Shown here one piece after another: positions 9,495-44,366 of a stretch of DNA of 64,000 nucleotides. The notes below the pieces were generated by a model. That model saw nothing but the letters and a program-made list of their open reading frames with translations. It had not been told where the DNA came from and did not search any database. The stretch spans positions 59,850 to 123,849 of the forward strand of contig JAIKYU010000099.1 in NCBI GenBank assembly GCA_024682835.1. Reading direction: 5' to 3'. This DNA is from Lachnospiraceae bacterium (GTDB taxonomy: Bacteria; Bacillota; Clostridia; Lachnospirales; Lachnospiraceae). The translations under genes and the position numbers were made by a program. Numbering within the stretch: the stretch's first letter is position 1; every line of letters starts with the position of its first letter.

Positions 9495-10206
9495 GCTTCA
9501 GGAGCGCCTGATAGGCTGCATGCTGCTCGGCTGACTTTTTGCTGGTTCCTTCGCCCTCTCCCATCAGATCGTCGCCGACGAACACCTCGCAGGTGAAGAT
9601 CCTCCGGTGCTCCGGTCCTTTCTCCCCCGTGATGCGGTAAGACAGCTGTCCAAGCTTTCTGCCCTGCACAATCTCCTGCAGGATGGTCTTGGAATCATAG
9701 AAGAGCTGCAGCTTATCCTGCTTCTCCAGGATATGGTGCAACACAAAGGACTGCGCCGGATCAAATCCGCCGTCAAGGTAGATCGCTCCGGTGACAGCTT
9801 CCATCACGTCGGCGATCAGGGCTTCCCGATCCCGGCCGCCGGCAGCCTCCTCCCCGCGGCCCAAAAGCAGGCAGTCACCGATCTCAAGCTCTCGGGCACA
9901 GTGAGAAAGCGCGGTCTCACAGACCATGGAGGCACGCCTTTTCGTGAGCGCTCCCTCCTTCAGATCCGGAAACCGGTGATAGAGATAATCGCTGGCCGCA
10001 ATCTCCAGCACCGCATCTCCGAGAAACTCCAGCCGCTCATAATCCTGCATACCGGATACTTTCTGCTCATTGGCATAGGAGGAATGGGTAAAGGCGCGAA
10101 GAAGCAGCGATTCATCTTGAAAGACATAGCCGATGCGCTGCTGCAATGCCTTCCAGTCGTCCGGCTGCAGGTTTCTTGCTTCCGATGTTTTGAATAATTT
10201 TCCCAT
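9478..10206 (-). CDS. rnc: Ribonuclease III
   Basis: LLRAFTHSSYANE, ERLEFLGDAVLEI, C-terminal dsRBD GTSKKSAEQHAAYQAL. Confidence 0.97.
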   Translation of the reverse strand: MGKLFKTSEARNLQPDDWKALQQRIGYVFQDESLLLRAFTHSSYANEQKVSGMQDYERLEFLGDAVLEIAASDYLYHRFPDLKEGALTKRRASMVCETALSHCARELEIGDCLLLGRGEEAAGGRDREALIADVMEAVTGAIYLDGGFDPAQSFVLHHILEKQDKLQLFYDSKTILQEIVQGRKLGQLSYRITGEKGPEHRRIFTCEVFVGDDLMGEGEGTSKKSAEQHAAYQALLKLGEGK

Positions 10207-10230
10207 GGATTCGGGTCCTTCCCCGCTGGG

Positions 10231-10461
10231 TTATTTTCCTGCGTTTTTGATCAGCTCAGCGGCTTCACCGACAGTTTTGATTTCGACCACCTTTTCCTGC
10301 GGCACCTGGATGTCAAAGGTGTCCTGGATCTGCATGACGATTTCCAGGATATCCAGGGAATCGGCAGCCAGATCGTCCACAAAGGAGGTCTCCTCCCTGA
10401 TCTCATTCGGATCGGCTCCCAGGACATCTGCGATGATTTTCTTCAGTTTTTCCATTTCCAT
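10231..10461 (-). CDS. acpP: Acyl carrier protein
   Basis: 76 aa with DDLAADSLDILEIVM phosphopantetheine site. Confidence 0.97.
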   Translation of the reverse strand: MEMEKLKKIIADVLGADPNEIREETSFVDDLAADSLDILEIVMQIQDTFDIQVPQEKVVEIKTVGEAAELIKNAGK

Positions 10462-10509
10462 TGTTCATCCCTCCGTAAAATGAAACATAAATCAGATGAT
10501 CCGCTGCAT

Positions 10510-11610
10510 TCATATGTCGTGCAGGCACTCCTCAATCTGCTTACCGATGTCCATGCGGTGGAACGTGACGCATTGCATGATCGAATTCTTCACCTCTGCG
10601 GCCTTCGCGCTGCCGTGTGTTTTGACCACCAGTCCTTTGAGTCCAAGCATCGGAGCGCCGCCGTATTTTGACAGGTCAAACATCCCAAGGGATTCTTTTA
10701 AGGAAGGCATCGCCAGAGCCGCGCCGAGCTTGCTCCTTACGTTTTTCGTCAGACCCTTTTTGAGCATGTGCAGCGCCGTCCGGCCGACCCCTTCATACAT
10801 CTTGAGGATCACATTGCCCGTAAACGCCTCACACACGAGGCCATCCACGGTGCCTGCATGAATGTCTCTGGCCTCCGCGCTGCCGATGAAATTGATATCA
10901 CAGCACGCCTTCAAAAGCGGAAAAGTCTCCTTCACCAGGGCATTGCCCTTCTCCTCCTCCGCGCCGATGTTGACGATGGCAACCGTCGGTTTTTCAACTC
11001 CGCAGGAATTGCGGAAATAAACCGAACCCATGCGTGCAAACTGCACAAGCGCCGAAGCCCTTGCGTCCACATTCGCCCCGCAGTCAATCAGCAGGGAAGC
11101 ACCTTTTTCCGTCGGGATAAACGGTGCAAGTGGCGCACGCTCCACTCCCTTCACACGGCCGATGATCGTCTGCCCGCCAACCAGCGTCGCCCCCGTCGAT
11201 CCGGCACTCACATAGGCGTCCGCATCGCCGGCGCGCACCATCTGCATGGCTTTCACTATGGAGGAATCACGCTTGGTCATGATCGCGTTGACCGGCGGTT
11301 CAGCCATCTCGATGACTTCCTTGGCATTCACAATCTCTATCAGGGAAAGGGCGGAGGGAGTCCTGCGCGCCTCCTCCGATTCAGCGGCCCTTGCAAGCTC
11401 CGGCTCGATCAGATTGCTGCGGCCCACCAGAAAAATCTTTCCGATGCGCCCCTTCGCTTCTCCTTCCCTTGCCGCCTCGCAGACAGCATCAACGGCTCCT
11501 TTTACAATCTCGCCGGGCGCGTTGTCGCCTCCCATCGCATCCACTGCGACTCTAACCTCGTTTGCCAATCTGACTCTCCTCTGTAAACCCGGTTCATGCC
11601 CGACTTTCAC
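10510..11610 (-). CDS. plsX: Phosphate acyltransferase PlsX
   Basis: VRVAVDAMGGDNAPGEIVKGAVDA; position in the rpmF-plsX-acpP operon. Confidence 0.96.
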   Translation of the reverse strand: MKVGHEPGLQRRVRLANEVRVAVDAMGGDNAPGEIVKGAVDAVCEAAREGEAKGRIGKIFLVGRSNLIEPELARAAESEEARRTPSALSLIEIVNAKEVIEMAEPPVNAIMTKRDSSIVKAMQMVRAGDADAYVSAGSTGATLVGGQTIIGRVKGVERAPLAPFIPTEKGASLLIDCGANVDARASALVQFARMGSVYFRNSCGVEKPTVAIVNIGAEEEKGNALVKETFPLLKACCDINFIGSAEARDIHAGTVDGLVCEAFTGNVILKMYEGVGRTALHMLKKGLTKNVRSKLGAALAMPSLKESLGMFDLSKYGGAPMLGLKGLVVKTHGSAKAAEVKNSIMQCVTFHRMDIGKQIEECLHDI

Positions 11611-11710
11611 CGGTCTGATGCCGTAACCGGACGATTTTCCACCGATAGTTGAAAACCCCCTCCGGTTACGGAGAGGGTTCTATTGCCACAAATCGGATCA
11701 CTCCGGCATA

Positions 11711-11893
11711 TCAGTCTTCGACAGCGATAACGCTCTTGTTCTGATAATAGCCGCAGCTTTTGCAGACCTTGTGGGGCTCCATGAGTGCGCCGCAGTGGCT
11801 GCATTTGACCAGTGCGGGAGCCTTCATCTTCCAGTTGGCTCTTCTCTGATCCCTGTGTCCCTTGGATGATTTGTTCTTCGGACAGATAGACAT
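11711..11893 (-). CDS. rpmF: 50S ribosomal protein L32
   Basis: 60 aa with CSHCGALMEPHKVCKSCGYY zinc ribbon; KSSKGHRDQRRANWKMKAP. Confidence 0.95.
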   Translation of the reverse strand: MSICPKNKSSKGHRDQRRANWKMKAPALVKCSHCGALMEPHKVCKSCGYYQNKSVIAVED

Positions 11894-12033
11894 CTTGCTT
11901 CACCTCGTTCAGAGCACATGCCGCCCGGAGGCGGAACGGTGCGATCAATCAACAGTTACAACGCGCACAGACGCGCGATAATGATTATATGCCCGTGCCG
12001 TTTGTTTTGTCAAGAGAAAAATCCTTACACGCT

Positions 12034-13230
12034 TCACTTCACCAGTGCCGCCGTGTCCCTGGCAATCGCAAGCTCCTCGTTGGTCGGTACCACCATGATG
12101 CGCACGGCGGAATCCGGCGTGGAGATGGTCACCTCTTTCCCTCTGGATTCGTTGGCGGCTTCATCGAGCTTTGCACCGAGATAGCCGAGCCGCTCGACGA
12201 CATACTTACGCACCAGCGGGCTGTTCTCACCGACGCCGGCCGTGAAGCAGATGCAGTCCACGCCGTTCATGGCCGCGGCATAGGCGCCGACATACTTGGT
12301 GACGTGATAGGCAAAGCAGTGGATCGCCCGGATCGCACCCGGATCCTTCTTATTGTATCCCGCCTCCAGATCGCGGAAATCGGAGGAGATGTCGCCGGAA
12401 AGTCCGTACACGCCGGACTCCTTGTTGAGTACCGTCATCACACCCTTTAAGTCCTTGTGCTCCTTTCCGGAAATGTAGTCGATGACGGAGGGATCGATGT
12501 CGCCGCTGCGCGTCCCCATGATCAGTCCTTCCAGGGGCGTCAGTCCCATGGAGGTGTCGATGCACCTACCGTTCTTCACCGCGGAGACACTGGCGCCGTT
12601 GCCCAGATGGCAGACGATGGTCTTTAAGGAATCATACGGCTTGCCGATGATCTCGGCGGCACGTGCGGACACATAGGCGTGGCTGGTGCCGTGGAAGCCG
12701 TAGCGGCGCACCTTGTACTGCTCATAATAGCGGTACGGCAGGCCATAGAGATAGGCCTCCTCAGGCATCGTCTGATGGAACGCGGTATCAAAAACGGCCA
12801 CCATCGGCACACCGGGCATGGCCTTCTCACAGGCGCGGACGCCGATGAGATTGGCAGGATTGTGCAGAGGAGCCAGATCACTAACCTCCTCGATCGCCCG
12901 GATCACCTGATCATCGATGATGACGGACTTCGTGAAGGCCTCTCCGCCATGAACGATGCGGTGACCGACCGCGTCAATCTCGGAGAGCTCCTTCACCACG
13001 CCGGTGGCCGGATCGGTCAGTGCCTCGATGACGAGGGCAATCGCCTTGTTGTGATCGGGCATCGGCTCTTCCTTTACGATTTTGTCGCCGCCTGCAGGCG
13101 TGAAGCTGATAACGCTTCCGTCAATACCGATCCGCTCGCAGAGGCCCTTCCCGAGAACCGCTTCCGATTCGGAATCGATCAGCTGAAACTTTAAGGACGA
13201 GCTGCCGCAGTTAATAACCAGAATCTTCAT
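12034..13230 (-). CDS. ackA: Acetate kinase
   Basis: MKILVINCGSSSLKFQL, FDTAFHQTMP, YRRYGFHGTSH, TGVGENSP-like C-terminus. Confidence 0.98.
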   Translation of the reverse strand: MKILVINCGSSSLKFQLIDSESEAVLGKGLCERIGIDGSVISFTPAGGDKIVKEEPMPDHNKAIALVIEALTDPATGVVKELSEIDAVGHRIVHGGEAFTKSVIIDDQVIRAIEEVSDLAPLHNPANLIGVRACEKAMPGVPMVAVFDTAFHQTMPEEAYLYGLPYRYYEQYKVRRYGFHGTSHAYVSARAAEIIGKPYDSLKTIVCHLGNGASVSAVKNGRCIDTSMGLTPLEGLIMGTRSGDIDPSVIDYISGKEHKDLKGVMTVLNKESGVYGLSGDISSDFRDLEAGYNKKDPGAIRAIHCFAYHVTKYVGAYAAAMNGVDCICFTAGVGENSPLVRKYVVERLGYLGAKLDEAANESRGKEVTISTPDSAVRIMVVPTNEELAIARDTAALVK

Positions 13231-13263
13231 AATGAATGACTCCTCTCTTTATGCTGTTTATGT

Positions 13264-14295
13264 TTATTTTGCCTTCTGTACATCCTGTGCCTGCACGGCC
13301 GTGAGGGCCACCACGCCCACGATATCCTGCCAGGAGCAGCCGCGGGACAGATCGTTGACCGGCTGTGCGATGCCCTGAAGCATCGGTCCGTAGGCATCAG
13401 CCCCGCCGAGACGCTGAACCAGCTTGTAGCCGATGTTGCCGGCGTCCAGGTTTGGGAAGATCAGCACGTTGGCGTGCCCCGCCACGGGACTGCCCGGCGC
13501 CTTGGAGGCCGCAACCTCGGGCACCAGCGCCGCATCCAGCTGCAGCTCGCCGTCCACGTTGAGGTCCGGATACATCTCATGTGCAATACGCGTTGCCTCG
13601 ACCACCTTGTCGACCAGCGCATGCTTCGCGCTGCCCTTTGTCGAATGAGAAAGCATGGCCACGCAGGGCTCGCCGCCCACCAGCTGACGGAAGCTTCTGG
13701 CGCTCGATTCCGCGATAACAGCCAGCTCTTCTGCGGTCGGATCCTGGTTTAAGCCTGCATCGGCAAAGACAAAGGTGCCGTCCTCGCCGTAATCGGAGTG
13801 AGGCACGTCCACCACGAAGAAGCCGGAGACCATCCGGACGCCCGGTGCCGTCTTGAGAATCTGCAGAGCCGGACGCAGCGTGTCCGCCGTCGGATGATTG
13901 GCGCCGGCCACCAGCCCGTCGGCCACGCCCGCCTTGAGCAGCATGACGCCGTAGTAGATATAGTTGGTGGACAGAAGCTCTCTGGCCTTTTCCTCGGTCA
14001 TGCCCTTGGCTTCGCGAAGCTTGAACAGGAGCTTGACATAGCTCTCAAAATTGGGATCCTCCGCGGGATCAATGATCATCGTGCGGGCAAAATGCACGTG
14101 CATGCGGTCCGCTTCGGCATTGATCTTCTGCTCATTGCCGATCAGAATCAGCTGGGCCAGATCCTCACGCAGGATCTGCGCTGCCGCGAGAATCGTGCGT
14201 TCATCGTCCGTCTCCGGCAGCACGATCGTCTTCTTGTCCATTTTGGCTTTCTGCTTGATCTTATCGATGTAAGACATGGATTTGACTCCCTTCAA
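13264..14295 (-). CDS. pta: Phosphate acetyltransferase
   Basis: [72 protein letters not shown]; start probably 14277. Confidence 0.97.
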
Positions 14296-35963: not shown

Positions 35964-36638
35964 TTACTTCGCTCTCTTAACCCTGACGGTGACGTTCTTC
36001 TTTGCTCCACCCGGGAATGTAAGTGCCAGCTTGACCGTTCCGTTCTTACCGGCGAGACTCTTGATCTGAACCCCCGTCTTGGTCTGCTCGACCGTCACAT
36101 TGGTGGATCCCGCGATCAGAAGGGTATCGTCCTCATCGACTTCCTTTATCCGCGAGGAAACCCGGAGGTTTTCATAAAAAGCCGTACCGTCCATCACGCT
36201 CTTTCCGAAACGATCCCTGCAGATATGCTGCATCGTTTCATTCAGCATGATGGGGATCCCGCCTTCACTGCAGATCAGCAGGCCCGTCGGCAGGCGGTCG
36301 ATCGCCTCCTTTACGGACATGGCAGAGATATGCTGCTTCTGCCAGCGGCGGATGTACCCCAACAGAAGAAAAGCGTATATCGCAAGCAGAACAAGCCCCG
36401 GCAGGATCAGCCAGATCGGGATCTCGAAATCCGGCACAAAATCTCCCTCCTGTATCTTGACCAACAGCTGAAACAGTTCAAAGCAGAGAAACAGCATCAA
36501 TCCCGGAAACAGCATGCTTACGGCTCTTCGTGCCAATGTCAGCAGTTTTAAAAACAAATAAAAATAGCAGAACAATATCAGACTGCAGAATATGAGAATC
36601 ACGCCCCTGTTTAATACGGAAAGCGACTGAAAGCTCAT
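35964..36638 (-). CDS. Membrane protein with PAS-like sensory segment and Ig-like/Big-type C-terminal tail (possible chimera)
   Basis: Four hydrophobic segments, SVKEAIDRLPTGLLICSEGGIPIMLNETMQHICRDRFG (PAS-like), then GKNGTVKLALTFPGGAKKNVTVRVKRAK; ATGA overlap with upstream gene. Confidence 0.55.
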   Translation of the reverse strand: MSFQSLSVLNRGVILIFCSLILFCYFYLFLKLLTLARRAVSMLFPGLMLFLCFELFQLLVKIQEGDFVPDFEIPIWLILPGLVLLAIYAFLLLGYIRRWQKQHISAMSVKEAIDRLPTGLLICSEGGIPIMLNETMQHICRDRFGKSVMDGTAFYENLRVSSRIKEVDEDDTLLIAGSTNVTVEQTKTGVQIKSLAGKNGTVKLALTFPGGAKKNVTVRVKRAK

Positions 36639-38256
36639 AGTCCCGCCTCCAATCTGATGTAAAAGGTCTCATCCTCGTATCGCACCGAAAGTCTTCCGCC
36701 GCATTCCTGAAGTTCTCTGTCCTTCCAGGCAGAGGTGACCGCTCCGGCCCTCACATCCGTCGAGATCATAAGATAAAAGCCGTTTTCAAAGCCAAGCTCT
36801 ACCGCACAGCAGCCTATGGATGACCATATGTCCTCCATCACGCACTCAAAAAGCTCATAAGCCAGGATTGCCAGTCCGGAGGCGATCCTGCCGCTGCCGA
36901 CGCTCATCAGTTCACAGGCGCAGCCGTTCAGTTTCAGATATTCCATGGATTCCCCCACCGAAAGAGCCAGCTCCCCGCTTTCCGTCCCCTCATTCCCATC
37001 TGTCAGCAGGATCAGATTCCCCATACGTTTGATATAAGCACTCAGAAAAGCCGCATAGATCAGATCCTCACGGATGTTTTCCGGCTCCTCCTTTTCCAGC
37101 AGTTCGTTGACACGCAGAGCCGTGGGACGTACCGCCTTCGCGATACGGTTATACAGGCGGTTCCTGGTCTCAATCCCGACACGTTCGGAACGCAGCGCAT
37201 TCTCCTGTCGGATCAGCTCGTTTTCATCCTCCAGTTCCTCCGTCACCTCGGCGATCTCGCGGTTCAGCTTTCGGATCGCAGTCAGATCCTCGATCCAGCA
37301 GATATATCCTCCTGCTATCTCCTCCCGGCGCAGTCTGAGATCCCCCTCTCCCTTTTCAGCCTCCTTTTTATCTTCCTCCTTCCAGTCTCCCGACCAAAGG
37401 ATCGCCCTGTCATCCCCGCTGTAGATACAGGCATGAAGCCCCGTATGCTTAAAAAGCAGGCGGTAAGCGGAATTGGCAGGGATCAGACCGATGATAAGCT
37501 CACTTTCCAGCCCCGTGATAAAGGGAAAGCAATAGGCCTCCTGCATCTGAAAAAGCTTGTAGCCGAAGAGCTTCGGAGATCCTCCGATGATCAGATACCA
37601 GATCAAAAGCCCGAAACCTGCCAGGATGTACCGGATCGGCACATAATAGTATTTTTTTGCCGCCGTCAGCATGCACTTTTTCACCATCAGGACCAATGAT
37701 CCCATACCGCCTAAGCACATCCAGAAGAGGATCACAAAATAAAACCATTTTCGCTCAAATTCCTTATCGGGAAGCACGTTCACAAGAAAAAGCTGCGAAT
37801 GAAGGGAATTGGTCATGATCACAATACAGATCAGCAGCCAGAGAACGATCAGGATCTTTTCCGTTTTTTCGACAGGCTTTATCTTTTTTACCGGTTCGAT
37901 CCGCAGGGAAGCAAGGAAGAAAAAAAAGCGGAATTCCGGTCATGGGAATATAATAGGCTAACCAGATGTGTTCCAGCAGAAGCGGCATATTCGAAAAAAA
38001 GAGTATTTGCACATCCGCAGATAAAAGACAGGATCATCAGAAAGCAGGCTGTCAGAACCCTGTTTCGCAGCTCTTCGACCAGAATCCTGCGTTTTAAGGT
38101 CATTCCTCAAAGGATGATCTGGATGACATAGCAGAACGTGTGCAGGTGATGCGGCCTGTAATGAGTTACAGGCATCATACAGAAAACGATGCCTGCCAGA
38201 AAAAGCCCCGCAAAAACAAGATATATTTTTTTATCTATGAGCTTCAGGCGTTCCAT
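36635..38256 (-). pseudogene. 7TM-type sensor kinase gene disrupted by one nonsense codon and two frameshifts
   Basis: MERLKLIDKKIYLVF...CYVIQIIL[TGA 38107-38109]GMTLKRRILVEELRNRV...CANTLFF[A7 run 37994-38000]SNMPLLLEHIWLAYYIPMTGIPLFF[A8 run 37920-37927]FLASLRIEPVKKIKPVEKTEKILIVLWLLICIVIMTNSLHSQ... continuous across ORFs 37888..38103, 37764..38012, 36635..37822. Confidence 0.8.
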
Positions 38257-38386: not shown

Positions 38387-41300
38387 TTACTGTCTTCTCT
38401 TTACCTTGTCCCTGTACATGGCGTTGTCAGCCTTGCGAATCATCTCCTCCACATCCAGCTTCCGGTGAATCATGGCATGGACGCTCCCGACACTCGCGAC
38501 GACGGGATACGGCTTGTTCGAAAGAGACGAATTCCTTTTTATCGCCTCATCCAGGCGCTTTCTCACCAGATCGGCGGGCAGCGCCACCTCCTTTTCGGTG
38601 ATCAGGGCGCAGGCAAATTCATCTCCGCCGTATCTGGCACAGAAGCCGTTTCTTGCGGAGAAATGACGGATTGCCTCCGCCATGCCGCAGATGGCAAGAT
38701 CGCCCTCGTTATGTCCGTAATGGTCGTTGATGTGCTTTAAGCCGTCCATGTCGATGGAGAAGATCGTGAGCACCTTTCCATCATTAGCAGGATTGGCCAG
38801 TTCCTCCGACAGACGGGAGAAGAAGCCTCTCCGGTTGTAGATGCCGGTCAGATAGTCGCTCACCGCTCTCTTTTCAATCTCGGCATTGGCTTCCCTGAGG
38901 TGCCTGTTGAGCATGCCGAGCCGTCTGTTGTTGAGCACCGTATTGAGGGCGGTGGATAAGAACATGCCGATCTCGTCGCAGCGGCGCACATCCCTGTTCG
39001 TGATGCCCGTCATGCCCTGAGCCAGATAGCCGTAGCTGGTGTCGGTGGTGGAAAGGAGCCGGAACATCAGCAGACGATAGGGCTGCTCCTTGGACAGCAC
39101 CTCATCCAGGCAGGGCATGACCTCGGTAACAGGAAACTCGCCGCCCATGATTTCCGTGTTCACATCATCATGATACTTCAGGAAGGTGTGGAATCTCCTG
39201 CCGGAAGCACCTCCTCCGAGGTGATCCTCCAGCAGCTCCGAGTAGAGTCCCACAAAATGGAACTGCTTTTTCCATACCCACAGGGTTGCCTGAGCCTCTC
39301 TGGCCAGCATTTCCAGGTCATCCAGAATGGCCGCACGGGACGTCATCTGGTTCATCAGCCGCATGCTCCAGTTGACGTCCATAAAGGAATCCGCAAATTC
39401 GGAAACCACCCCGCGGGAGAGGATCTGATCCTCCATCAGACAGCCGCAGGAGCGCCGTCTCTTCTGTATGCCCTGCAGGGGATGTTCCTCACCGTCGGGA
39501 TCTGTGGGACGCCCCTCACGGATTCTATCAATGACAAAGCGTGCGCCCTCCGCAAAATCCGTTCCCACACTGGTGATGGATGGATTGTGCACCAGGCCCG
39601 CCTGAATGTCGTCAAAACCTGTGACAATCACATCCTCAGGCACCCGAAAGCCCCGCTCATTCAGGACTTCGCAGGCTGCGACGGCCATCGTATCATTGGC
39701 GCAGACGACCGCATCCGGAAGGCCGTCCTCATCCAGGAACTCCTCCATGGCCGTCCGTGCGGGTCTGTCCCAGAATTCGCCGTGTTTGATTCTTTTCTCC
39801 TCAACCGGAATCCCGTGACCGGCAAGAACCTCCCGATATGCTTCCTCCCGTTCATCGGAATAGGTATTTCCCTTCACACCGGCGATCAGATCGATGCGTC
39901 TGCAGCCATGCTCACGGATCACATGCTCCACCATTTCCTTAAAGCTCTCTTTATAGGCAAAGGGGAGATTGATGCACCCCGGATAGGACTGCTCAAACGC
40001 AAACACCGGCACCCGCTGTTTTCTGCCGATCTCCACGATCGCGTCGCAGAACTTCGTGTTCGAGAGCATGGACACCACCATCAGGACGATTCCAACGTAA
40101 TCCATCTCCTTTGCCAGTTCAATCAGTTCCGTCTCCCGGTTGGAGAGCCGCTCTTCCTTCACGTCATCGACGGAAAAGGAATATACACAGACGATGTAGT
40201 CCTCCCCGCAGGCGTCGGTCAGTGCCTTCAGGAATCCGAATTCATGCTCCTCATACAACGCGCCGCCGAACACCGCGATGACCTTCTTCCTGTGCTCCGC
40301 CCGGCTCTCCTCCGAAGCAGGCGCTTTTCCCTTCCACAGGCCAAGGGTGCCGGTTCCGATATAGAAGCTTCCCGCCTCTCTGCTGTCCCCCTCGATGCTG
40401 TTGATCTCCCCGAAGCGATGGTCGTCGTCATTGAGCCGGTGCCAGGTCGCCCCGTCGTCATCCGAGCGGAAAAATCCATGAATTCCTTCCATCACCCCGC
40501 AGATATACAGCGCCTTGGGACATCCGATGTAAGAGGCTTCCCCGTGAAGAAGTCCCAGACCCACACGAAACACCTGCGTCTGCCCGTCGGTGATCCGCCC
40601 GGCTCTCGCCGTGTCCGAATACTGATCATACTCCAGCTTCCACAGTCCCTGCTCCGCTGCAGCGATGTAGAATTTTCCGGCAAAGCCGCTGTCACCCCGG
40701 ATTTCCGTCCGGTTCGCACAGTCCACCTTACCGAATTCCAGATCTGGAAATCCCGGAATCTCTTTTTCCTGAAAGCTTTCGCCGTAGTCCGTGCTGACAA
40801 AGAACCGCCCGTGCTCGCCAAAGCCGTAAAACACGCCGGGCACGACACGGTCGGCAAAAACCTTCAGCCGTTCAGGCTCCTTCGCATCCGGCAGTCCTGT
40901 GACCCTCACCTTCTTCCAGGGACTGACCTCTCCCCTTGCGGCAGGTCCGGGCGGCGCGTCCTTTTTCGAGGCATCCGGAAACGGAGCATCCGCGGCATGC
41001 CACACGACGACGCAGTCCGCCGGCAGGTCATTTCCATCCGCCAGAGAGAGAATCAATGTGTGTCCGTCCGCCCCCACAGCGGTCCAGCCCACATTGACGT
41101 TTGGATGCTCGATTCCGGCGCACAGCTCATCCATCCGCTTTGTCAGGCCGTAGGGAAGCGGAAGTCTTCTGAAATGCCCGGCGCCGTCGAGGCTTACAAT
41201 CAATCCGCCAATCGTCTTTCCGGTCCAGTTGCCTCTGGCCGTCACGGCGATCATGGACGGATCGTTATCCGGGTAGTCCGCATTCAGACAGGTGATGTAT

Positions 41301-42733
41301 CGGTTTCCCTGATCATCGGCAAAGGAATTCTCACACTCTTTATCCGTGTCCGTAAAGGCAAAGCCGCCAAGATCACCTAAAATGTCGATAACCCGCACAT
41401 CGCCGGAGGGCGGACTGTAGAGATTTAAATGCACCGTCTCCTCAATTCCCCCGCAGGCATCGGAAAAGCTTCTGTCCGCCGAGGTAAAGTCTTTCCCGGT
41501 AAACACGCCCGTGCCTGTGTTAATCCACACCCTGTCCGGATCAAAGGGATCGATCTTCACATCGCTGTGCCAGTGAAGAAGGGATCCTCCGCCGTTGTAG
41601 CACGGCTTCATATAGCTGGTGTGAAAGTGGAGATTGCCCTTCTTCAGCCCATCCAGCGCTCTTTCCCAGTGAGCGCCAAAGTCGTGGGAAATGTAGAGCA
41701 GATCCCCCTCGTCCCGGCAGAGGGTCGCCGCAGCAAGAAGCCCTGGCCTTGACTGGCAGACGCTGATTCCGCCAAAGCCGTAGGTAAGGTCCTCATTGGT
41801 GTATTCCGGCGTGATATCCTCATAGGGAATCTCATCGAAGGGAAGGTCTTTGAGGTCACTTACGGCGTACCGGATGATCCGCCCGCCCAGCTGATCTCCC
41901 GTGTCGCAGCTGTAGCCCATCTCCCGCAGATAGTTGCGCGCGCCCGTGTTGGAGAGCGTCACGTAGACGTGGTGTTTGTCCGAACAGATTCGCTGCGCCA
42001 CGTATCCGGAGAGGAGGGATTTCGGTATCGGATGATTCTCCGGGGAGGGAAGCTTTTCAAAGGTCTCTCCGCCGTCGCGGGAGATATAGAGGCTGTGCCC
42101 CCGCATATCTTCCTTCATGAGGGAGATGCCTGCCGTGCCCGCAATGAGGACGGAGGCGTCGTCGCTCATCCAGACAAGCGTCAGATACTTCTCGCCGCAC
42201 ACGGATCGTTTATCCCAGCTCTCGCCGCCGTCTCTCGTGATGAGCAGGCCGTCCCGCTGGGAAGCAAAATACAGCGTCCCTGCATCCGCCGGGGAAACGA
42301 TCAGCCGGTCGCCGGTGCCCCGGCCCGGGAGGTTGCCGTGGATGTAGCAAGGGATGTTTTTCCTCTGAAAGCTTTCTCCCCTGTCGTTTGATATGGCCAG
42401 GATTCCGCAGGGCCTCTCTGCCAGATGCTCGGAGTCCTTTGACCCCCACCATCCTCTGCCGTCGCCGCAGGCCACATACAGAAGATCCGGATCCCTGTCA
42501 TCCAGCGCGATGGCCAGAGGAAAGGTCTCGCTTAAATCGTCCATGCCCGCCCGCTCGATGAGACTCTTCCATTTTGCGCTCTCCGGATCATAGCGGTAGG
42601 TTCCGCCGATGTCCGTCCGGGCATACAGGATGCCGGGCACTTTTCTGTGGAACCGGAATCCCGTCACATACCCGCCGCCGGGGATGGGGAGATGCGAGTA
42701 GTCATAAGGCAGCGGTTTTCTACTGATCAGCAT
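38387..42733 (-). CDS. Fusion protein: GH74-like xyloglucanase double beta-propeller + LacI-type PBP1 sensor + GAF-like linker + GGDEF diguanylate cyclase
   Basis: GGAGG RBS 6 nt before ATG 42733. GH74: GGGYVTGFRFHRKVPGILYARTDIGGTYRYD, ISNDRGESF, GRGTGDRLIVSP, DILGDLGGFAFTDTD, repeated Asp-box-like RDGGE(S/T) motifs (to ~40345). PBP1: KKVIAVFGGALYEEHEFGFLKAL...DAVVCANDTMAVAACEVLNERGFRVPEDVIVTGFDDIQAGLVHNPSITSVGTDF. GGDEF: DYLTGIYNRRGFF...IDMDGLKHINDHYGHNEGD...ARYGGDEFACAL. Confidence 0.9.
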   Translation of the reverse strand: MLISRKPLPYDYSHLPIPGGGYVTGFRFHRKVPGILYARTDIGGTYRYDPESAKWKSLIERAGMDDLSETFPLAIALDDRDPDLLYVACGDGRGWWGSKDSEHLAERPCGILAISNDRGESFQRKNIPCYIHGNLPGRGTGDRLIVSPADAGTLYFASQRDGLLITRDGGESWDKRSVCGEKYLTLVWMSDDASVLIAGTAGISLMKEDMRGHSLYISRDGGETFEKLPSPENHPIPKSLLSGYVAQRICSDKHHVYVTLSNTGARNYLREMGYSCDTGDQLGGRIIRYAVSDLKDLPFDEIPYEDITPEYTNEDLTYGFGGISVCQSRPGLLAAATLCRDEGDLLYISHDFGAHWERALDGLKKGNLHFHTSYMKPCYNGGGSLLHWHSDVKIDPFDPDRVWINTGTGVFTGKDFTSADRSFSDACGGIEETVHLNLYSPPSGDVRVIDILGDLGGFAFTDTDKECENSFADDQGNRYITCLNADYPDNDPSMIAVTARGNWTGKTIGGLIVSLDGAGHFRRLPLPYGLTKRMDELCAGIEHPNVNVGWTAVGADGHTLILSLADGNDLPADCVVVWHAADAPFPDASKKDAPPGPAARGEVSPWKKVRVTGLPDAKEPERLKVFADRVVPGVFYGFGEHGRFFVSTDYGESFQEKEIPGFPDLEFGKVDCANRTEIRGDSGFAGKFYIAAAEQGLWKLEYDQYSDTARAGRITDGQTQVFRVGLGLLHGEASYIGCPKALYICGVMEGIHGFFRSDDDGATWHRLNDDDHRFGEINSIEGDSREAGSFYIGTGTLGLWKGKAPASEESRAEHRKKVIAVFGGALYEEHEFGFLKALTDACGEDYIVCVYSFSVDDVKEERLSNRETELIELAKEMDYVGIVLMVVSMLSNTKFCDAIVEIGRKQRVPVFAFEQSYPGCINLPFAYKESFKEMVEHVIREHGCRRIDLIAGVKGNTYSDEREEAYREVLAGHGIPVEEKRIKHGEFWDRPARTAMEEFLDEDGLPDAVVCANDTMAVAACEVLNERGFRVPEDVIVTGFDDIQAGLVHNPSITSVGTDFAEGARFVIDRIREGRPTDPDGEEHPLQGIQKRRRSCGCLMEDQILSRGVVSEFADSFMDVNWSMRLMNQMTSRAAILDDLEMLAREAQATLWVWKKQFHFVGLYSELLEDHLGGGASGRRFHTFLKYHDDVNTEIMGGEFPVTEVMPCLDEVLSKEQPYRLLMFRLLSTTDTSYGYLAQGMTGITNRDVRRCDEIGMFLSTALNTVLNNRRLGMLNRHLREANAEIEKRAVSDYLTGIYNRRGFFSRLSEELANPANDGKVLTIFSIDMDGLKHINDHYGHNEGDLAICGMAEAIRHFSARNGFCARYGGDEFACALITEKEVALPADLVRKRLDEAIKRNSSLSNKPYPVVASVGSVHAMIHRKLDVEEMIRKADNAMYRDKVKRRQ

Positions 42734-44252
42734 TTGTCGCCTCCAACTCAAACCAGAATTCTACACCGTTATCATAATCAATCACCCCGTATCCGCGGTG
42801 AAGGGTCTCCATAATGGCCTTCACGATCGACAGGCCGATTCCGCTTCCGCCGTCGTCTCTGGTTCTGGCCTTATCCACCTTGTAAAACTTATCCCAGATC
42901 TGCCCCATGCTCTCCGGCGGGATCGGTTCTCCCGTGTTGAAGACGGAGATCCTTACGGTTTCCTCCTCCCGGCGCTCCATGCGCACCTCCAGGATTTTTT
43001 CCCCGTCGAGGTGCTTCAGGGCATTGCCGACATAATTCTGCAGCACCGTCTCCACCATGAATTCATCCGCCCAGACGTAGACGGGCGGATAGTCCTCCAT
43101 CCGCACATTCGCACCGGCCTTCTGAATCAGGAGCTGCGCCGAGCGGAGATAATTGCGGATCAGCTCCGTGATATCAAACCGCGTAAAGTTCATGGGATTT
43201 TCACCGGATTCCAGATGAGAGAGCGTCAGAAGCTCCTTTACAAGACGGTTCATCTTCCCCGCCTCATCGAGAATCACCCGACAGTATTCCTGTCTGCTCT
43301 CCTCGTCATCCGTCACCCCTTCCACGAGGCCCTCCGCATATCCCTGGATGAGCGCGATGGGGGTCTTCAGTTCATGCGAGACATCGGAAACAAAGGTCCT
43401 GCGTTCCGCGTCGATCTCCTCCTTTTTCTCTATGTCCCGAAGAAGCTTCGTGTTGGCGGTCTTCAGTTCGGAAATGGTCTGCTCCAGCGCGGAGGACAGC
43501 TCATTGAGATTTTCCCCGAGAAGATCCAGCTCATTTCCCGTCCGATCCGAATACTTCGCCTCAAAATTCAGCTTTTTCATTTCCTCGGACAGCGCGGTGA
43601 GCCTGGTGACAGGTCTGGTCATCCGTCCGGTGATAAAGAAGATCAGAATCGCGCCGAGCGCAGCCGAAAAGAGTCCCGCGGCGATCATAAAGCGGCTGCT
43701 TAAGGCTGCCGACACGTCAATGCTGTCCAGGGGGCTCTCGATCATACACATGTTTCCGTTATCCAGATAGCCCCAGAGAATCAGATACTGGGTGCCGGAC
43801 TGCCGGTAGTTTTCTTTTTGCAGTGTATAAGTGTTCGTTTTTTCGATAACATCCACATCGGCATAACTGTCCTCGTGCCCGAGGATATGGTTCCACAGAA
43901 GCACGGCCATACGCTCCGTGTCATCGACGGCCGATGATTTGACCGTCTGCGATTCGCCATCGAGAATCAGCAGCCGGATTTCATATTGCGTGCTGATTTT
44001 CGACAGCTCCGCATCGAAGGCGCTGCTTGCAATCTCCCCGCGCATAAGCGACGTGTTGACACCCTTCCAGGCGCCGCGAACCGCTTCCGTACGCTTCCGG
44101 AGATAGTACGGAAGAAGCAGCAGGCTGTTCGCCAGTATGCAGAGTATGATCGTGCAGGCCATGATTGCAAGAAAGATCAGGGTAAACTGTCTTCTGATTG
44201 ATCCTGTGCGTCGTCTGTCCGATGGTTTCGTGGTTTTGGAATGTGTGATCAT
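42720..44252 (-). CDS. Sensor histidine kinase (two TM, HAMP, HisKA, HATPase_c)
   Basis: FVSDVSHELKTPIALIQGYAEGL, NYVGNALKHLDG, DDGGSGIGLSIVKAIMETLHRGYG; 14-nt overlap with the start of the GH74-GGDEF gene. Confidence 0.95.
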   Translation of the reverse strand: MITHSKTTKPSDRRRTGSIRRQFTLIFLAIMACTIILCILANSLLLLPYYLRKRTEAVRGAWKGVNTSLMRGEIASSAFDAELSKISTQYEIRLLILDGESQTVKSSAVDDTERMAVLLWNHILGHEDSYADVDVIEKTNTYTLQKENYRQSGTQYLILWGYLDNGNMCMIESPLDSIDVSAALSSRFMIAAGLFSAALGAILIFFITGRMTRPVTRLTALSEEMKKLNFEAKYSDRTGNELDLLGENLNELSSALEQTISELKTANTKLLRDIEKKEEIDAERRTFVSDVSHELKTPIALIQGYAEGLVEGVTDDEESRQEYCRVILDEAGKMNRLVKELLTLSHLESGENPMNFTRFDITELIRNYLRSAQLLIQKAGANVRMEDYPPVYVWADEFMVETVLQNYVGNALKHLDGEKILEVRMERREEETVRISVFNTGEPIPPESMGQIWDKFYKVDKARTRDDGGSGIGLSIVKAIMETLHRGYGVIDYDNGVEFWFELEATNADQ

Positions 44253-44366
44253 CCTGTTTCCCTTATCATGTGATGCCCACGGATTGCTTCGTTGCAGCGC
44301 AAAGCTTCGCTTCGGTCGGCGCAGAACCGGGATCCACCGGATCTCGTGCGCCCTCATCATTACGTG

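Follow-up and report, generated by a model that had tools for sequence, protein, structure and literature searches.

In this study we describe a gene that joins a glycoside hydrolase (GH) to a sensor diguanylate cyclase, encoded in a 64,000-nucleotide stretch of DNA (hereafter, the window) from a Lachnospiraceae bacterium (contig JAIKYU010000099.1, positions 59,850 to 123,849; draft genome of 154 contigs, 97.9% complete). As shown by its sequence, the encoded protein consists of a complete GH74 xyloglucanase-type domain with both catalytic Asp residues, followed, after a linker of some 14 residues, by a likewise complete PBP1-GGDEF protein, i.e. a LacI-like effector-binding fold (PBP1) followed by a diguanylate cyclase domain (GGDEF), with the cyclase motifs intact. 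We propose that it acts as a cytoplasmic enzyme-sensor-cyclase which would report imported xyloglucan oligosaccharides as cyclic di-GMP (c-di-GMP), a reading in which the coupling and the ligand are the putative elements and which we regard as evenly poised.

The open reading frame (ORF) starts with ATG at 42733 and ends with a stop codon at 38387-38389 (coding part 42733-38390 on the reverse strand, 1448 codons). While the other two frames of the same strand contain 51 and 56 internal stops, this frame contains none, and GC content at third codon positions (GC3) stays at 0.60-0.84 along the entire ORF, even over the junction between the two halves. The separate genes of relatives show where these halves come from: their stand-alone GH74 proteins terminate at the equivalent of residue 802-810, and their stand-alone PBP1-GGDEF proteins begin at about the equivalent of residue 811. 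Since these ends and starts fall on the join, the fusion appears to combine two complete proteins with almost nothing gained or lost, and its probable origin is a GH74 gene and a PBP1-GGDEF gene that were once separate.

A phmmer search of PDB sequences with residues 1-803 matched 17 chains, all of GH74 type (E down to 2.4e-56), with coverage of residues 9-498 and 620-802, that is, of both seven-bladed propellers; Pfam finds BNR/Sortilin-VPS10 matches in this half. The motifs YARTDIGG and LGDLGG start at residues 37 and 452, which places the two catalytic Asp residues at D41 and D454. D41 pairs with an Asp of chain 6mgj; the otherwise near-identical chain 6mgl, presumably a deliberate active-site mutant, has Ala there. 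With homology over both propellers, the two catalytic Asp residues and the core motifs YARTDIGG, GD.GGF and NDD.H.FG all retained, the domain belongs to the GH74 family. Its identity to most of the stand-alone GH74 genes of relatives, which are scattered over genera, is 45-53%.

In the second half, Pfam detects Peripla_BP_3 (E 1.3e-24) and Peripla_BP_1 (E 1.2e-10), and LacI-family chains in the PDB match the same region. The Pfam scan of the protein shows no helix-turn-helix (HTH) motif, and PBP1-GGDEF homologues begin directly at the first PBP1 strand; a LacI-family transcription factor, which would carry an N-terminal HTH, was therefore rejected. The GGDEF domain scores above the gathering threshold (PF00990, E 3.7e-30; TIGR00254, E 6.5e-30), both metal/GTP motifs (DMDGLKHINDHYGHNEGD and RYGGDEF) are present, and the place of the RxxD I-site reads ARNG in the sequence. 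An HTH-less PBP1 fold N-terminal to a GGDEF domain with intact motifs identifies this half as a predicted sensor cyclase of the PBP1-GGDEF type. Between the two lies a middle region that contains near its start, where the PBP1 fold ends, an SCGC motif (residues 1092-1098, 39440-39460), the C-G-C of which is invariant in 16 homologous PBP1-GGDEF proteins. An earlier note on this DNA, made from the sequence alone, had read the frame as a contiguous ORF encoding GH74 with two conserved catalytic Asp regions, an HTH-less LacI-type PBP1, a GAF-like segment and a canonical GGDEF lacking the I-site. All of this agrees with our results apart from the GAF-like segment, which finds no support: residues 1092-1289 give no Pfam match, and a 16-sequence profile matches no solved structure at E < 0.3.

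The earlier note had also reported the absence of a signal peptide, and this extends well beyond the window. In relatives, the proteins of this GH74 clade have 2-37 residues ahead of the propeller and lack a signal peptide (judged by eye), as opposed to the one classical secreted GH74 with a signal peptide (in genome G166; genomes are given as G numbers and loci as L numbers), which is distant from the signal-less clade. Since all clade members start just before the propeller, cytoplasmic location appears to be a property of the whole clade. At nine loci a GH31 gene directly adjoins a stand-alone GH74, mostly at a distance of 10-91 bp (Table 1; at L180 both genes are fragments). When one of these GH31 neighbours was compared with solved structures, the alpha-xylosidase MeXyl31 was the best match by far (E 4e-264), and a GH31 with 46% identity to MeXyl31 (E 1.5e-218) is encoded on contig 101 of the window's own genome. 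One GH74 locus additionally contains a SASA-type esterase. The neighbours thus look like a gene pair for cytoplasmic xyloglucan oligosaccharides. In Ruminiclostridium cellulolyticum, imported xyloglucan oligosaccharides are proven to be depolymerised in the cytoplasm by an alpha-xylosidase and its partners, with Xgh74A being cellulosomal (PMC4780118), and in a survey of rumen Butyrivibrio the majority of abundant GH families are without signal sequences (PMC6912079). Taken together, the signal-less clade, the GH31 neighbours, this pathway and the Butyrivibrio survey make it a sound inference that the cytoplasmic GH74 acts on imported xyloglucan oligosaccharides.

GH74 is not the only hydrolase fused to PBP1-GGDEF: a check of other long PBP1-GGDEF frames recovered two further GH families in such fusions in Lachnospiraceae, and the window's genome itself encodes one of these. 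This is a PBP1-GGDEF-GH53 protein on contig 2 (1196 aa; L073:5934-9524, contig 9933-13523), which recurs in G039, G354, G356, G357 and G006, giving six genomes in five genera at 55-64% identity (the G357 and G006 copies are cut by the contig end); G284 probably has it as well, split over two contigs. Being better conserved than the GH74 fusion, it is probably the better experimental subject. A PBP1-GGDEF-GH3 protein of 1435 aa was found in one genome (G002 contig 58, L071:6827-11134). The GH domain is N-terminal once (GH74) and C-terminal twice (GH53 and GH3). Unfused neighbours exist too: on contig 25 of G160 (L150) a PBP1-GGDEF gene and a GH3 gene, 62 and 60% identical to the respective halves of the G002 protein, are convergent, and GH53 lies directly beside PBP1-GGDEF in G343, in G329 and on contig 3 of the window's genome. 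A GH53 next to PBP1-GGDEF in G076 was rejected as a fusion, since it is encoded by a gene of its own and carries a lipoprotein signal. Among further long PBP1-GGDEF frames of relatives (about 900-1320 aa), the eight scanned contain no GH: they are PBP1-GGDEF-EAL proteins, in one of which GGDEF did not score. The remaining long PBP1 proteins examined, of GGDEF-EAL or EAL type, have no GH either. A tree of 64 PBP1-GGDEF units places the GH74, GH53 and GH3 fusion types in three separate supported clades, which indicates that GH fusions to PBP1-GGDEF arose independently at least three times. This joining looks like a recurrent way of wiring diet to behaviour.

How would such a protein work? PBP1 lobes close on their ligand and work as dimers, and GGDEF domains function as dimers driven by the preceding helix. 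In the cytoplasm, the GH74 domain would encounter xyloglucan oligosaccharides brought in by an ABC transporter and trim them, thereby producing or consuming the ligand of the adjoining PBP1 domain. Driven by this ligand, the PBP1 lobes of the dimer would close and act through the middle region and helix on the GGDEF pair, altering c-di-GMP synthesis in either direction, on or off. Because the cyclase has no I-site, its product would not shut it down at the usual place and the output would track the ligand, so that the cell would read its cytoplasmic xyloglucan supply as c-di-GMP. More broadly, and tentatively, Lachnospiraceae may possess a convergent 'digest-and-report' class in which a hydrolase generates or eliminates the ligand of the PBP1 domain on the same chain, and c-di-GMP would read the catalytic flux of one plant polysaccharide (xyloglucan, galactan or beta-glycoside) and not the concentration of a common sugar.

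Several observations weigh against this coupled enzyme-sensor-cyclase. The GH74 fusion is known from one strain and one draft genome of 154 contigs: a full-protein query over 396 family, 79 genus, 7 other-genus and 295 order genomes (overlapping samples) found no second GH74-PBP1-GGDEF protein. The ligand and activity of the protein rest on inference, and an AlphaFold model of the PBP1-GGDEF half, built from three sequences, is of low confidence (pLDDT 49). Stand-alone PBP1-GGDEF orthologues (41-44% identity) occur in 14 congeners and in two species of another genus. The 14 congeners, which carry the closest orthologues, have no GH74 in the genome, and the neighbours of these orthologues are mixed: methyl-accepting chemotaxis protein (MCP), ClpC, carbamoyl-phosphate synthase, GH3 and GH13. 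A general enrichment of GH genes beside PBP1-GGDEF is not claimed, because the count (10/79 vs 2/55 beside other GGDEF genes, one-sided p 0.064) is not decisive and the PBP1-GGDEF set of 79 was not picked blind and is thus a biased sample.

The main rival reading is that the two halves are tethered without signalling: GH74 would degrade oligosaccharides while PBP1-GGDEF senses some other ligand, with no crosstalk. Congeners with orthologues next to unrelated genes and no GH74 fit it, and because of them the PBP1 ligand need not be derived from xyloglucan. Yet three or more independent fusions of a GH to PBP1-GGDEF, one of them kept at 55-64% identity across five genera, together with neighbouring unfused pairs for all three GH families, exceed what would be expected of chance tethering. 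For GH74 such a pair is seen in G356, where GH74 and the orthologous PBP1-GGDEF are divergent genes 865 bp apart, with one pseudouridine-synthase gene between them. The GH74 partners of the window's genome (G000) and G356 do not form one clade (AU test p 0.0014; the branches are long); the pairing may accordingly have two origins, or else the lineage of GH74 is old, a point we do not press. The fusion pattern suggests that GH and PBP1 handle the same glycan, and on this pattern and on family knowledge we favour the coupled enzyme-sensor-cyclase and consider mere tethering rather unlikely.

It is less likely still that the GH74 domain serves as a binding module instead of a hydrolase, holding xyloglucan oligosaccharides as a second sensor of the cyclase. 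Enzyme-derived sensors are known in general, but both catalytic Asp residues and the core motifs are kept here, and the alpha-xylosidase-type genes adjoining related stand-alone GH74 genes fit catalysis.

Two explanations that would dissolve the fusion itself turn on the junction. An artefact, with two neighbouring genes merged by an assembly or base error, might be suspected in a draft assembly that has the one GH74 fusion among the genomes searched. However, there is no in-frame ATG, GTG or TTG from codon 749 to 820, codon 811 is CGG, and the nearest in-frame start codons (GTG 821 and TTG 826) lie within the first PBP1 strand. One erroneous base that masks a stop is therefore insufficient, as the second half would still have no start codon. 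Frame, GC3 and gene ends are all consistent over the join, a search of the window's genome found the GH74 half just once, and parallel fusions have been kept elsewhere, in the genomes of other bacteria. The earlier note had held that relatives carrying two separate genes would speak against the fusion. Relatives do carry two; their ends nevertheless coincide with the join and no second start codon is present here, and two-gene relatives therefore speak for a real fusion. We consider an artefact very unlikely. Most improbable of all is that an internal start yields most of the cyclase as a PBP1-GGDEF protein of its own: a GGAGG does lie 5 nt ahead of codon 811, the point at which stand-alone relatives begin, but GTG 821 and TTG 826 are too far from it. 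This GGAGG may be a relic of an old ribosome-binding site, a weak reading given that GGAGG occurs 15 times in the ORF.

The features are collected in Table 1. Because its end overlaps the fusion gene start by 14 nt, the upstream histidine kinase gene is probably co-transcribed with the fusion gene. No response regulator gene adjoins the kinase gene, the upstream neighbour of which is an EF-G-like gene. Just downstream of the fusion gene (35964-37822, reverse strand) are two overlapping ORFs of 224 and 395 aa with hydrophobic N-terminal stretches and no Pfam match. The c-di-GMP network of the genome is rich, with about 45 GGDEF matches in 3.2 Mb. Two of its proteins are amino-acid-permease fusions, and thus transporter-coupled c-di-GMP proteins: permease-GGDEF-receiver-EAL (L058:686-5107, own contig 27, 1473 aa) and permease-PAS-GGDEF (L059:6235-9828, own contig 67, 1197 aa).

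Table 1. Features of the fusion gene, its upstream neighbour and related loci (positions in the window unless a locus is named).
Feature	Position	Strand	Basis or remark
Whole gene, GH74-PBP1-GGDEF fusion	38387..42733	(-)	Open frame, 1448 aa + stop
GH74 xyloglucanase-type domain, residues 9-803	40325..42709	(-)	phmmer to 17 GH74 PDB chains
D41, first catalytic Asp (YARTDIGG)	42611..42613	(-)	Motif position and alignment with GH74 chains
D454, second catalytic Asp (LGDLGGF)	41372..41374	(-)	Motif position and alignment with GH74 chains
Junction/linker, residues 804-817	40283..40324	(-)	Comparison with ends of stand-alone relatives
GGAGG, 5 nt before codon 811	40309..40313	(-)	Possible relic ribosome-binding site of once separate second gene
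LacI-like PBP1 effector-binding fold without HTH, residues 818-1091	39461..40282	(-)	Pfam and PDB LacI-family chains
Middle region, residues 1092-1289	38867..39460	(-)	SCGC motif near start; probable pre-GGDEF helix (low-confidence model)
GGDEF diguanylate cyclase domain, residues 1290-1448	38390..38866	(-)	GGDEF at 1369-1373; no I-site
Upstream histidine kinase gene (HAMP, HisKA, HATPase_c)	42720..44360	(-)	End overlaps fusion gene start by 14 nt
GH74 + GH31 adjacent pairs	L076, L078, L079, L080, L083, L067, L177, L179, L180		Signal-less GH74

No GH74, GH53 or GH3 fusion to GGDEF was found in full-text searches of open literature (subscription papers and preprints being outside this scope), in line with the earlier note, to which no described GH74-GGDEF fusion was known. 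One precedent is a GH126-GGDEF protein of Bacillus velezensis (QHK13041.1), a single chain that likewise combines a GH with a domain of GGDEF type; it differs in the GH family, in having no PBP1 sensor and in the degenerate SAERF that replaces GGDEF (PMC7479077). A 'GGDEF' alpha-glucosidase (PMC5457731) is not counted as a precedent, because it is a HAMP-GGDEF protein labelled GH53 by a server with no GH53 domain shown. The fusion is homologous to the GH74 xyloglucanases (Xgh74A, OXG-RCBH and others) along their entire domain and has both catalytic Asp residues in common with them; however, well-studied bacterial GH74 enzymes are secreted or cellulosomal, such as R. cellulolyticum Xgh74A (PMC4780118), whereas the clade of the fusion is signal-less and is here joined to a signalling protein. 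The GH53 and GH3 fusions resemble it in combining a GH and the PBP1-GGDEF unit in one chain, and differ in their GH families, in the C-terminal position of the GH and in their separate origin in the tree.

The closest known type is that of the Lachnospiraceae PBP1 (LacI-like, Peripla_BP_3)-GGDEF proteins, with which the fusion has a PBP1-middle-GGDEF unit of 630-680 aa in common. A 2022 review of c-di-GMP signalling treats the PBP-like (LacI-like) domain as a putative sensor which may bind sugars, with the ligand unknown and no hydrolase mentioned, and names just one domain family among the PBP-clan sensors of c-di-GMP proteins as having been studied (PMC8846402). The fused hydrolases make the question of the PBP1 ligand directly testable, since each names a candidate for its own protein: xyloglucan oligosaccharides for GH74, galacto-oligosaccharides for GH53 and beta-xyloside or beta-glucoside oligomers for GH3. 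If the coupling is true, it would constitute a direct molecular link from the digestion of a single plant fibre to c-di-GMP-controlled behaviour in fibre-degrading bacteria. Known PBP1-GGDEF proteins have no enzyme domain besides GGDEF (or GGDEF-EAL), while the fusion adds GH74; what is known, then, is PBP1-GGDEF as a type, and what is new is a sensor cyclase of that type with a built-in glycoside hydrolase.

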